Source of the DNA: Verrucomicrobiota bacterium
Lineage (GTDB): Bacteria; Verrucomicrobiota; Verrucomicrobiia; Palsa-1439
NCBI GenBank assembly: GCA_003152315.1
Contig: PLZV01000012.1
Span: 243-64,242, forward strand
Direction: 5' to 3'
Length of the DNA: 64,000 nt
Shown: one piece after another, positions 7,391 to 16,170 of the stretch
How the letters are laid out: each line of letters starts with the position of its first letter
How positions within the stretch are numbered: position 1 is the first letter of the stretch
Made by a program: the position numbers and the translations under genes
The notes under the pieces: model-generated
Databases searched by the model: none
What the model was told of the DNA's origin: nothing
The model's input: the letters and a program-made list of their open reading frames with translations, nothing else

Positions 7391-7611
7391 AGCCCAAGCT
7401 TTGCCGCTCTGGCAAAAATCTGCTTGGCCGCATCCCGCAATTTCGCGATACGGTCGAGCGCGCTTTGATGAACGCGAATCCGTTCGGCAGGCGTCCGTCG
7501 CAGGCTCTCCTCCAGCAAATTCATGTCGCAGCCGTGCGCCGCCGCCGCCCAAGCATCTTTCTTTGCCGCGGGAGCGGTCTTCGAGCGATTGTTTGCGCAA
7601 CCCCTCTTCAT
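7387..7611 (-). CDS. 74-residue helical protein translationally coupled to leuA
   Basis: The ATG at 7611 overlaps the leuA stop by 4 bp (ATGA). A long basic N-terminus is followed by MNLLEESLRRTPAERIRVHQ and a second helix L-D-R-I-A-K-L-R-D-A-A-K. This 'one/two short helices with T-P-A-E-R' pattern resembles small helical proteins found beside nucleotidyltransferase or PIN toxins. An internal start at the MNLLEES methionine is possible. No toxin partner is recognisable in the next ORF. The coupling to leuA is unusual and suggests co-expression. Confidence 0.5.
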   Translation of the reverse strand: MKRGCANNRSKTAPAAKKDAWAAAAHGCDMNLLEESLRRTPAERIRVHQSALDRIAKLRDAAKQIFARAAKLGL

Positions 7612-9185
7612 AGCGTCGGTTTTTCGGTTTCGGCGGTGCGGCGATGTTCGTAGAGGGTGCGATTGATGGCGTTCAAGTAGGCGAGGGCGCTGGCTTCGAT
7701 GATATCGGTCGAGACGCCTTTGCCGGTCACGATCTTGGTTTCTCCTCCGGCGGGCGAGACGTTGGCGCGACTGTCGAAGGTGACGCGGACGGTGACTTCG
7801 CCGACGGCATCCTTGCCACGCGTGACGCTCTTGACGCTGTAATCAGTGAGGCTGCCGTGGAGGCCGGTAATGCGGTCGATGGTCTTGAGCATCGCATCGA
7901 TCGGGCCGTCGCCGGTGCCGGCGTCGGCAATGGGTTCTTTTTTCTCGGCGTGGATGAGGCGCACGGAGGCGGTTGGGATTTCGCCGGTCATGACGCTGAG
8001 GTAGCCCAGTTTCCAGACCTGCGGCACCTCGCTGAACTGGCCTTCGACGATGGCCGTGACGTCCTCGTCGTACACCTGCTTCTTTTTGTCGGCGAGCGTC
8101 TTGATCTGGTCGGTGATGCGGCGGACTTCTTCCTCGCTGAGTTTGTAGCCCATCTCCTCGAGCTTTTTGCCGACAGCATGGTGGCCCATGTGTTTGCCCC
8201 AGGTGAGTTCACTGGAACGGCCCACGTCCTCGGCGCGCATGATCTCGTAGGTCTCGCGGTTGGCCATCATGCCATGCTGGTGGATGCCGGCTTCGTGGGC
8301 GAACGCGTTGTCCCCGACGATGGCCTTGTTGCGCTGCACGATCATACCGGTCATGTGCGAGACGAGGCGGCTGCTGCGATAGATCTGCGTGCTGTCGATA
8401 TTCGTCTGATAACCGCTGAACGCATCCTGGCGCACCTTGAGGGCCATGACGACTTCTTCGAGCGACGCATTGCCCGCGCGTTCGCCGATGCCGTTGATCG
8501 TGCACTCGATTTGACGCGCGCCATTCTGGATCGCAGCGAGTGAATTGGCGACGGCGAGGCCGAGATCGTTGTGGCAGTGAACGCTGATGATGGCGTTCTT
8601 GATGTTGGGGACGTGATCGTAGAGATGCTTGATGAGCGCGCCGAACTGATGCGGCGCGGCGTAGCCGACGGTGTCCGGGATGTTGACGGTTGTGGCGCCT
8701 GCCTCAATGACCGCCTGTGTCACCTCGGCCAAGAACTCGGGTTCTGTGCGCGAGGCGTCTTCGGGAGAAAACTCCACGTCTTTGCAGTAGCCGAGCGCGC
8801 GTTTCACGCCTTCCACGCTGCGCTTGAGGATTTCGCTCTGGGCCATCTTGAGTTTGTGTTCGCGATGGATGGCGCTGGTGGCGAGAAAAACGTGGATGCG
8901 AGCGCGGTCGCCCGCCGGCTTCACGGCTTCGGCGGCGCGGTCGATGTCCTTATCGACACAACGGGCCAAGCCGGCGATGCGCGGGCCTTGCACCTCGCTG
9001 GCGATGGCCTTCACGGCCTCGAAATCGCCATCGCTGGCGATGGGGAAGCCCGCCTCGATGATGTCCACGCGCAAGCGCGCGAGCTGCCGCGCGACCTCGA
9101 GTTTCTCGCGAATGTTCATCGACGCGCCGGGGCATTGCTCGCCGTCGCGCAACGTCGTGTCGAATATCAATATCTGGTCACTCAT
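7608..9185 (-). CDS. leuA: 2-isopropylmalate synthase
   Basis: 525 residues; condenses acetyl-CoA with 2-oxoisovalerate in the first committed step of leucine synthesis. The HMGL-like TIM barrel carries the metal/catalytic DTTLRDGEQ at residues 9-17 and the HCHNDLG loop near 205. The C-terminal third (from about 390) is the LeuA dimer regulatory domain that binds leucine for feedback inhibition. The start has an AAAGGTAG ribosome site. Upstream on the same strand lie a Leu-rich leader ORF and an intrinsic terminator, so transcription is probably controlled by attenuation. Downstream two small ORFs are chained by 4-bp overlaps. The rest of the leu pathway is not in the window. Confidence 0.95.
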   Translation of the reverse strand: MSDQILIFDTTLRDGEQCPGASMNIREKLEVARQLARLRVDIIEAGFPIASDGDFEAVKAIASEVQGPRIAGLARCVDKDIDRAAEAVKPAGDRARIHVFLATSAIHREHKLKMAQSEILKRSVEGVKRALGYCKDVEFSPEDASRTEPEFLAEVTQAVIEAGATTVNIPDTVGYAAPHQFGALIKHLYDHVPNIKNAIISVHCHNDLGLAVANSLAAIQNGARQIECTINGIGERAGNASLEEVVMALKVRQDAFSGYQTNIDSTQIYRSSRLVSHMTGMIVQRNKAIVGDNAFAHEAGIHQHGMMANRETYEIMRAEDVGRSSELTWGKHMGHHAVGKKLEEMGYKLSEEEVRRITDQIKTLADKKKQVYDEDVTAIVEGQFSEVPQVWKLGYLSVMTGEIPTASVRLIHAEKKEPIADAGTGDGPIDAMLKTIDRITGLHGSLTDYSVKSVTRGKDAVGEVTVRVTFDSRANVSPAGGETKIVTGKGVSTDIIEASALAYLNAINRTLYEHRRTAETEKPTL

Positions 9186-9220
9186 GACTCTACCTTTCTA
9201 ACGCAATTGGCGGGGGAGGA

Positions 9221-9260
9221 AAATAAAAAACCCACCCCGACGCTCGCGTCGGGATGGGTT
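9221..9260 (-). terminator. Attenuator terminator upstream of leuA
   Basis: On the minus strand AACCCATCCCGACG, loop CGAG and CGTCGGGGTGGGTT form a 14-bp stem (one G:U pair) followed directly by TTTTTTATTTT. It lies 23 bp after the leader-peptide stop codon and about 36 bp before the leuA start. A competing pairing exists: GCGTCGG inside the leader (9297-9303) with CCGACGC of the terminator arm (9246-9252), and GATGGG with CCCATC. Either would prevent terminator formation, as expected for ribosome-stalling attenuation. Confidence 0.8.
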
Positions 9261-9282
9261 CGAAGTTCTTTGTAAGCAGACC

Positions 9283-9351
9283 TCAGCCCATCGTCTCCGA
9301 CGCGAATCGGAGAGCCAGCAGAGCCAGTGATAGACCGAGGTTGCAATTCAT
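9283..9351 (-). CDS. Putative leucine-rich leader peptide of leuA (LeuL-like)
   Basis: A 22-codon ORF from ATG at 9351 to TGA at 9283-9285, reading MNCNLGLSLALLALRF and then ASETMG. Six of the ten codons 5-14 are leucine (CTC, CTA, CTG, CTG, CTG, CTC). The stop is followed by an intrinsic terminator and then leuA. This is the layout of a ribosome-mediated attenuator: leucine starvation would stall the ribosome in the leucine run and favour the antiterminator. A possible promoter (TTGACT at 9384-9389, TACCAA at 9361-9366, 17-bp spacing) would start the RNA only a few bases before this ATG. Confidence 0.7.
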   Translation of the reverse strand: MNCNLGLSLALLALRFASETMG

Positions 9352-9360
9352 TACAGGGTA

Positions 9361-9389
9361 TTGGTAGCAGGGGTTGGGCCGGAAGTCAA
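9361..9389 (-). promoter_or_regulatory. Possible promoter of the leuL-leuA unit
   Basis: On the minus strand TTGACT and TACCAA with a 17-bp spacer lie just upstream of the leader ORF. The -35 is strong and the -10 matches only three of six consensus positions. The predicted start would leave almost no 5' untranslated region before the leader ATG. Confidence 0.3.
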
Positions 9390-9516
9390 GGGGGAGGTGA
9401 GATGGGGCCACGTAGAGCGACCGCCTTCTTGCCGGCACTTGTAGTAGCACCGGTGGTTATAGTGAAGGTGGATGATCATCGCTCGAGGTCCGGGGTCCCG
9501 TGGTACTTCGCCACCC

Positions 9517-9889: not shown

Positions 9890-10120
9890 ATGAAGACGGA
9901 ACTGCTCCAGCGGATTTCCATTGAGCCGGACAAGTGCGGCGGACGCCCTTGCATTCGCGGGAAGCGTCTCCGGGTTGTGGACGTTCTGCAACTGCTCAGC
10001 GCGGGTGCGTCGTTCGAGGAAGTTCTCGCTGACTACCCGTTTCTGGAGCGGGAAGACATTCTGGCGGCGATTGAATACGCCGCGCTACAGACCGACCACG
10101 TTGTGCTGCAATCCGCGTGA
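9890..10120 (+). CDS. DUF433 antitoxin (VapB-like)
   Basis: 76 residues matching the DUF433 family (PF04255): RISIEPDKCGGRPCIRGKRL, V-V-D-V-L-Q-L-L-S-A-G-A, then F-E-E-V-L-A-D-Y-P-F-L-E-R-E-D-I-L-A-A-I-E-Y-A-A. This is a winged-helix-like DNA-binding fold found as the antitoxin of PIN-related toxins. Its stop codon overlaps the GTG start of the DUF5615 gene by 4 bp, the usual coupled layout. The module sits in an accessory stretch between leuA and ilvC. Confidence 0.88.
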   Translation: MKTELLQRISIEPDKCGGRPCIRGKRLRVVDVLQLLSAGASFEEVLADYPFLEREDILAAIEYAALQTDHVVLQSA

Positions 10121-10446
10121 AATTCCTGGTGGACAACCAGCTTCCGTCGGCCCTGGCCAAGATGCTGGTTTCTCGTGGACATGAAGCCCGCCATGTTTTG
10201 GATGTTGGGCTCGACGCAGCCACCGACACCGAAATCTGGAAGTACGCAGCGGCGAACTCACTCGTGCTGATCACCAAGGACGAGGATTTTTCCCAGCGCG
10301 CCTCGCAACCAAGCGCATCAGTGCAAGTCGTGTGGGTGCGTCTTGGCAATTGTCGAAAGACCGCGCTCCTGTCGGCGTTCGACTCTGTACTTTCCCAGAT
10401 GCAGACTGCCCTTGAAGCCGGTAATCACGTCGTCGAAATTCGCTAA
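10117..10446 (+). CDS. DUF5615 PIN-like toxin
   Basis: 109 residues from GTG at 10117. It begins MKFLVDNQLPSALAKMLVSRGHEARHV, then D-T-E-I-W-K-Y-A-A-A-N-S-L-V-L-I-T-K-D-E-D-F, the pattern of the DUF5615 (Mut7-C/PIN-like) nuclease family. The acidic residues D6, the D-x-E in the centre and K-D-x-D-F near 54 form the expected metal site. Together with the overlapping DUF433 gene this is a type II toxin-antitoxin module; the toxin is predicted to cleave RNA. Confidence 0.88.
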   Translation: MKFLVDNQLPSALAKMLVSRGHEARHVLDVGLDAATDTEIWKYAAANSLVLITKDEDFSQRASQPSASVQVVWVRLGNCRKTALLSAFDSVLSQMQTALEAGNHVVEIR

Positions 10447-14366: not shown

Positions 14367-15590
14367 ATGCCTTTCAAACAACTTGGACTTTCTGAAGAGG
14401 TCGTGCGCGGCGTGCAGGCCGCAGGTTACGTCGAGCCGACGCCCATTCAACTACGGGGTATCCCGCTCATCCTGGCTGGCAAAGATCTTATCGGCGCGGC
14501 GCAAACTGGCACCGGCAAGACCGCCGCGTTTGCCCTGCCGATCCTCACGCTGCTGAAGACGCACGGCAAATGCCGCTGCCTCGTGCTCGAGCCGACGCGT
14601 GAGCTGGCCGCGCAAGTCGAGACCGCCTTTCACGAGTACGGGCGGTTCACCAACATGAAAACGGCGGTCATCTTCGGCGGAGTCGGTTACGGCAACCAGA
14701 AACAGGAATTGCAACGCGGTGTGGATATCGTGGTCGCGACGCCGGGGCGGCTGCTGGATCTGTTGGGGCAGGGGTCGCTACATCTGCGCGACGTGAATAT
14801 GTTGGTGCTCGACGAAGTGGATCGCATGCTCGACATGGGTTTCCTGCCCGACGTCCGCAGGATCGTCAACCTTTGTCCAAAACAACGGCAAACGCTGCTG
14901 TTCTCGGCGACCGTTCCCCCGGAGATCGGTCAACTCGCCGCTTGGGTGCTCCGCAACCCTGAGAAGATCGAAATCGGTGCGAGCCGTTCGCCGGCCGAGA
15001 CGGTTACCCACGCCTGTTACCCGGTCGCGACCAGCCAGAAGTTTCAACTACTTGCGGCGTTGCTACAGCGCACAAATTTCGACAGCGTGCTCATCTTCTC
15101 GCGCACCAAGCACGGCGCCGATAAGATTGCGACCCGGTTGCGGGCCGAACGGCACTCGGTGGCGGCGTTGCACTCGAACCGCACGCAACGCGAACGTGTC
15201 GAGGCGCTTGATGGATTCAAGTCCGGCAAGTATGAAGTCATGGTGGCGACCGATATCGCCGCGCGCGGGCTCGACGTCGAGGGCGTCACGCACGTGATCA
15301 ACTACGACGTGCCGCAGCATCCTGAAGATTACGTCCATCGCATCGGCCGCACCGGCCGCGCACAGAAGGTGGGCGATGCGTTCACGCTGGTGACCATCGA
15401 GGAACTCGAATACCTCCGCGCCATCGAACGTTTCATTGGCCAGACGATCCCGCAGCTCAAGCTGGAGAACTTCGACTACGTCCTGACCCCACTTTTCGAA
15501 GGAAAGCAAATCTCCGGTGACCGCCGCAGCGTCCGCGCCGTCCGCACGATGAAAGGCTATTCCTTCAGCCCGAGCCGGAAGCGGCGGTAG
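14367..15590 (+). CDS. DEAD-box RNA helicase, RhlE-like, with DEVD in motif II
   Basis: 407 residues. Q-motif G-Y-V-E-P-T-P-I-Q, motif I AQTGTGKT at 45-52, PTRELA near 76, TPGR near 125, motif II DEVD at 149-152 (Val in place of the usual Ala), SAT at 180-182, and HRIGRTGR at 324-331. The core is that of RhlE-type helicases, which remodel RNA in ribosome assembly and mRNA decay. The C-terminus is short and basic (SFSPSRKRR). The final 80 bp are repeated at 16091-16170 beyond a HicAB module, so the last 26 residues may have been replaced during an insertion. Confidence 0.92.
   Translation: MPFKQLGLSEEVVRGVQAAGYVEPTPIQLRGIPLILAGKDLIGAAQTGTGKTAAFALPILTLLKTHGKCRCLVLEPTRELAAQVETAFHEYGRFTNMKTAVIFGGVGYGNQKQELQRGVDIVVATPGRLLDLLGQGSLHLRDVNMLVLDEVDRMLDMGFLPDVRRIVNLCPKQRQTLLFSATVPPEIGQLAAWVLRNPEKIEIGASRSPAETVTHACYPVATSQKFQLLAALLQRTNFDSVLIFSRTKHGADKIATRLRAERHSVAALHSNRTQRERVEALDGFKSGKYEVMVATDIAARGLDVEGVTHVINYDVPQHPEDYVHRIGRTGRAQKVGDAFTLVTIEELEYLRAIERFIGQTIPQLKLENFDYVLTPLFEGKQISGDRRSVRAVRTMKGYSFSPSRKRR
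15511..15590 (+). repeat. Direct repeat, proximal copy: 3' end of the helicase gene
   Basis: These 80 bp are the last codons and stop of the helicase gene. They align with 16091-16170 at 72 of 80 positions without gaps. Most differences are at third codon positions and the homology ends exactly at TAG in both copies. The two copies bracket the HicAB module. Confidence 0.9.
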
Positions 15591-16031: not shown

Positions 16032-16090
16032 GATGAAACTGTACTCGGTTTCTCCCACCGCTTCAAGTGCACTGTTCAGGGAAATGACCA

Positions 16091-16170
16091 TCTCCGTCGA
16101 CCGCCGTAGCGTCCGTGCCGTCCGCACGATGAAAGGGTACTCCTTCAGCCCGAGCCGCAGGCGGCGGTAG
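16091..16170 (+). repeat. Direct repeat, distal copy: orphan helicase 3' end
   Basis: Reads in the helicase frame as V-D-R-R-S-V-R-A-V-R-T-M-K-G-Y-S-F-S-P-S-R-R-R-R followed by TAG, nearly identical in protein to the true helicase C-terminus. It has no helicase sequence upstream; instead hicB begins about 60 bp away on the other strand. It marks the far boundary of the roughly 500-bp HicAB insert (15591-16090). Confidence 0.9.

Follow-up and report, generated by a model that had tools for sequence, protein, structure and literature searches.

The region upstream of leuA in the window, the 64,000-nucleotide stretch of Verrucomicrobiota DNA analyzed here, most probably encodes a leucine-sensing, ribosome-mediated transcription attenuator, a reading to which we assign a probability of about 0.9 from sequence analysis. 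Computation identified the leader open reading frame (ORF), its RNA helices, their conservation, the position of a promoter, and a switch between folds. Classical amino acid attenuation would thereby be extended to a phylum for which we found no description of it, and ORFs of leader size are easily missed by annotation.

In the window, leuA is a minus-strand gene at 7608 to 9185 that encodes a 2-isopropylmalate synthase of 525 amino acids, as indicated by matches to TIGR00973 (706.2 bits versus a cut-off of 598.7), PF00682, and PF08502. Its likely Shine-Dalgarno (SD) sequence, AAAGG, is located at 9193 to 9197, outside the leader hairpins. Further upstream on the same strand, a leader ORF of 22 codons at 9283 to 9351 (ATG at 9351 to 9349 and TGA at 9285 to 9283), identified from the sequence and from relatives, encodes MNCNLGLSLALLALRFASETMG, with leucine at codons 5, 7, 9, 11, 12, and 14. 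An in-frame GTG at 9450 would yield a 55-amino-acid leader; this start was rejected because relatives conserve the ATG at 9351 as the start. The ORF is followed by an intrinsic terminator hairpin at 9228 to 9261 (minus strand, −27.0 kcal/mol), which is the sole terminator-like site in the region before leuA and is present in all 11 family members. Its stem, running from 9261 to 9228, has 15 pairs including G-U and a 4-nt loop and is followed by TTTATTTT; the U-tract, TTTTTTATTTT, occupies 9220 to 9230. The earlier note on this DNA had claimed a 22-codon ORF with six leucine codons within codons 5 to 14, as well as a GC-rich stem with a T-run before leuA, and both were found in place. Since the nearest upstream genes found (9893 to 10446) are on the strand opposite to leuA, the terminator does not mark the end of a neighboring co-oriented operon. 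That interval, between the ilvC and leuA regions, carries on the plus strand paired genes for DUF433 and DUF5615 (PIN-like) proteins, which may form a toxin-antitoxin system. Elsewhere in the window, the two copies of a 101-nt direct repeat (83% identical; 15490 to 15590 and 16070 to 16170) form the ends of two ORFs, one of them DEAD-box helicase-like.

The leader RNA is unusually stable (z = −4.8, with 0 of 200 shuffles equally stable), and its minus-strand segments offer alternative pairings. Arm 1, the pause or protector arm (CCTCGGTCTATC, 9329 to 9340), lies inside the leucine codons and is indicated by covariation. It pairs with arm 2 (GATGGGCTGAGG, 9281 to 9292), which extends across the leader stop codon and can instead pair partly with arm 3 (9245 to 9258), a segment that sequence and masked folds place both on the 5′ side of the terminator and on the 3′ side of the antiterminator. 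An extra antiterminator arm at 9297 to 9304, seen in ribosome-masked folds, pairs with CCGACGCG at 9252 to 9245. In the full antiterminator, CGCGTCGG (9304 to 9297) and GATGGG (9292 to 9287) pair with CCCATCCCGACGCG (9258 to 9245), giving 14 bp with a 4-nt bulge, an arrangement read from the sequence and recovered by masked folding. The alternative pairing between 9297 to 9303 and 9246 to 9252 proposed previously is real, but it represents only part of this helix; the longer antiterminator, along with the leaderless peptide start and the phylum-wide spread described below, had been missed.

For ribosome-masked folding, the part covered by the ribosome was removed and the minimum-energy equilibrium fold was taken. 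When the masking ribosome was placed at codon 9 or 12, the antiterminator became the minimum-energy fold of the window's leader (G000), and when the mask was placed at the stop codon, that leader folded as the terminator, as the leaders of 10 of the 11 family members did. Masking switched the fold from terminator to antiterminator in 7 of the 11, the window included, and the terminator stayed the equilibrium fold despite the masked ribosome in 4 of 11. In the cell, the second arm of the terminator would be transcribed only after the antiterminator had formed.

We infer from the sequence the following course for transcription start, leader translation, ribosome stalling, and the response to leucine. 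RNA polymerase would start at, or 1 to 3 nt before, the leader AUG, yielding an essentially leaderless nascent RNA on whose 5′ end a ribosome would initiate. With ample Leu-tRNA, the ribosome would reach the stop codon and cover arm 2, arm 3 would pair with arm 4, and this pairing would end transcription at the U-tract, leaving an RNA of ~125 nt. A shortage of charged Leu-tRNA would stall the ribosome in codons 5 to 14, where it would mask arm 1; arm 2 and CGCGTCGG would then pair with arm 3, no terminator would form, and leuA would be transcribed. If the leader is not translated, the arm 1:arm 2 hairpin would form and termination would be the default. The layout of ribosome-mediated attenuation, as originally claimed for this locus, is supported at the level of sequence by the ORF, the terminator, the antiterminator, their conservation, and the upstream promoter.

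Conservation was evident within the family. All 11 family genomes have a leucine-rich leader and a terminator whose distances from leuA are similar, and two of these genomes correspond to the public metagenome-assembled genome contigs PLTX01000087.1 and CAIKBP010000115.1; MNRNLNLLLALLALLLTRQTAG and MNQNLNLLGLLALPRKLSGTVG are typical leader peptides. In the family alignment, the leucine run showed a dS of 0.54 versus a dN of 0.21, a contrast that was smaller or lost in the other frames, and three leucine positions are invariant in all 11 members through synonymous codons. The arm 1:arm 2 helix had 95.8% of its cells paired, with 5 pairs changed on both sides, and its covariation score was reached by none of 500 shuffles; for the terminator, the percentage of paired cells was reached by 2 of 500. 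The antiterminator helix alone fell within the shuffle control (110/500, family alignment), since the terminator also uses arm 3 and this segment is nearly invariant. The earlier note had asked for an alignment of related genomes, and the leucine-rich peptide and both hairpins proved to be kept in the 11 family genomes and in many other families.

To cover the phylum, leuA upstream regions were taken from 176 genomes picked from search matches and not at random, comprising 110 of the class (family included) and 66 others. A fixed rule required an ORF of 10 to 45 codons with at least 5 leucines per 10 codons and, downstream of it, a hairpin that has a T-run and a folding energy of −12 kcal/mol or lower. 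The leucine-rich ORF was present in 84/176 genomes and was accompanied by a terminator in 66/176, representing ~30 families, with one or two calls among the listed leader matches being weak. In 47 of the 66 terminator-bearing genomes, the 3′ end of the leader can pair with the 5′ arm of the terminator over at least 7 bp, versus 23% with shuffled leader ends. The leader is rare or absent in several sampled families (e.g., f3, f7, f12, f37, and f74). Outside the phylum, a leucine-rich ORF plus terminator precedes leuA in some Desulfobacterota-type records, one Phycisphaerae bacterium, and others. In-frame stops noticed within some distant leuA matches were set aside; they resembled the regular stop codon of the gene, placed close to where the match ends.

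These counts bear on a rival explanation, namely that the hairpin is a constitutive terminator or a remnant of an upstream transcript and that the short ORF has arisen by chance. Leucine codons are common and short ORFs frequent, and the same rule indeed picked a leucine-rich ORF in 11 of 528 dinucleotide-shuffled leuA upstream regions; however, it found an ORF plus terminator in none of the 528, whereas the pair is conserved throughout the family, substitutions in the ORF are biased toward synonymous ones, and the promoter spacing is conserved. Already from the conservation, a chance origin appears very unlikely indeed, and attenuation is retained as the preferred reading.

The best promoter match upstream of the leader consists of a −35 element, TTGACT (9384 to 9389, minus strand), whose TTGAC is conserved in the family, and, after a 17-nt spacer, a −10 element, TACCAA (9361 to 9366, minus strand), preceded by TGC (extended −10). 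The TGC-TA at the −10 element is kept in most family members; the hexamer is a poor match to TATAAT, and a simple promoter scan missed this promoter. With a gap of 9 nt between the −10 element and the leader ATG, and a discriminator of 6 to 8 nt, transcription is predicted to start at 9352 to 9354 (minus strand), 1 to 3 nt before the ATG. All family members have TTGAC, a spacing of 16 to 17 nt, and a TA-containing −10 element separated by a few nucleotides from the start codon of the leader. A transcription start downstream of the leader ORF had been named as grounds for abandoning attenuation; the predicted promoter sits upstream instead.

This arrangement extends beyond the family. For 84 leaders across the phylum, with all in-frame leader starts considered, the best sigma-70-type promoter match ends 5 to 11 nt before an in-frame start in 73 (versus 16% for shuffled upstream sequences), and a promoter score of at least 10 at the same spacing was obtained in 79% versus 3.5% for shuffles. 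Bacterial transcription usually starts ~7 nt past the −10 element, so that a 5′ untranslated region (UTR) of ~0 to 4 nt is expected. Given this spacing, we predict that the leader is read from a leaderless mRNA lacking an SD sequence. SD-like motifs precede the leader start in 7/73 cases versus 28/73 for the leuA start, and the leader start codon is GTG in 16. For a few leaders (e.g., G342, G478, and G467), the predicted 5′ UTR is longer, and thus the spacing test can tell leaderless from non-leaderless starts. A leaderless start may be well suited to attenuation, since it would allow the first ribosome to load once the 5′ end leaves the polymerase.

In the window's genome, the pattern TTGAC-N17/20-TANNNT-N5/9-ATG occurs 56 times versus 21 in the reversed control (2.7-fold), and leaderless genes therefore look common there. 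The excess of leaderless-type promoters fits the report that some Verrucomicrobia are SD scarce (PMC10783764). Several of these promoters in the same genome (e.g., L219, L228, and L231) have palindromes in the spacer, such as ATCGTATTCCGAT and TGTACCATTTTTGGTACA, and one of the promoters precedes what looks by eye like a gene for a HigB-like toxin (L228). A 16-mer, CGAAACGAACCCACCG, was also seen at L196, L219, L226, L231, and L246 of this genome and looks like part of a dispersed repeat.

Five families (f18, f29, f26, f41, and f54; loci L120, L121, L125 to L127, L132, L142, L145 to L150, and L184) have a leucine-rich ORF before leuA that is mostly leaderless by promoter spacing, and no convincing terminator was found after the ORF in these families. 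Within families, the ~80 nt preceding leuA are conserved and hairpin rich, leuA lacks an obvious SD sequence, and no Rfam match was obtained among the members scanned. These sequences suggest an output different from termination, possibly through an unnamed RNA element acting on translation. In a rival reading, the leader could act on leuA translation, the ribosome position exposing or hiding the leuA start, and the hairpin would not be the main output. The terminator-less families would agree with such a mode, as would the actinobacterial LEU element, proposed to work via the leuA SD sequence (PMC1262725). In the window and its whole family, however, a strong terminator with a U-tract lies 40 to 60 nt before leuA, and the SD sequence of leuA is its own and outside the hairpins, which makes translational control decidedly unlikely as the principal output there and leaves transcription attenuation as the reading we favor. 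A broader scenario, in which leaderless-peptide attenuation is the standard and probably ancestral means of leucine sensing in Verrucomicrobiota, and several families, having lost the terminator, now use the same leaderless leucine-rich ORF in another kind of switch that is probably translational, is put forward tentatively, with the odds somewhat against it. The wide set of leaders makes a change of output between termination and another mode testable.

We also looked at other biosynthetic loci of the same family. No similar leader was found at the main ilvB, nor at hisG and trpE, which follow other genes. Two relatives carry a second acetolactate synthase gene of the ilvB type, in front of which lie a short Val/Leu-rich ORF and a GC-rich hairpin that has a short T-run. 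These ORFs, MESARHSTLVNVTRATLVGVVVVVLVRVGAP at L203 (G009:C2, just upstream of 12678) and MQRKHNPTSVHQVLVGLVVLVVSLAP at L204 (G004:C1, just upstream of 141225), likely belong to another attenuator, as judged from their sequences.

Leaders of this kind can be compared with several known systems. The leu operon leader of enterobacteria (RF00512) likewise has a peptide with leucine codons before leuA and alternative antiterminator and terminator structures, but it has a normal 5′ UTR with an SD sequence, unlike the predicted leaderless start here. An Rfam scan of the window's leader at gathering and relaxed thresholds matched no family, RF00512 and the T-box covariance model included. The actinobacterial LEU element also has a leader ORF with a leucine run upstream of leuA, and it is described as a pseudoknot in which the leucine run pairs with the leuA SD sequence (PMC1262725). 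In contrast, the element described here has a classical strong terminator, and its leucine-codon region pairs with arm 2 in folds computed without pseudoknots.

The closest parallels to the predicted leaderless start come from other operons. The ilvBNC attenuator of Corynebacterium glutamicum shares a leader peptide rich in branched-chain amino acids and three-hairpin transcription attenuation, and its transcription start and leader start codon are 1 nt apart (PMC11857589); it differs in phylum, gene, and peptide, with Val/Ile/Leu codons there versus leucine codons here. In Sinorhizobium meliloti, the ATG of the trpL leader ORF is the 5′ end of the RNA, rnTrpL, but the system belongs to the trp operon, and its RNA and peptide also act in trans (PMC7298713). 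The shared anatomy, in which a short leaderless RNA contains both an ORF and a terminator, raises the idea that the terminated ~125-nt RNA or its peptide has a trans function here, as rnTrpL and peTrpL do; we give this an outside chance, and such a role would add to attenuation and not replace it. Because leaderless attenuator peptides are established in C. glutamicum and S. meliloti, attenuation with a leaderless leader peptide counts as a known kind. No paper on attenuation in Verrucomicrobia was found in the open-access literature. What appears to be undescribed is the leuA attenuator of Verrucomicrobiota together with the phylum-wide consistency of its predicted leaderless start; the set offers numerous natural cases of leader peptides whose mRNAs are predicted to be leaderless.
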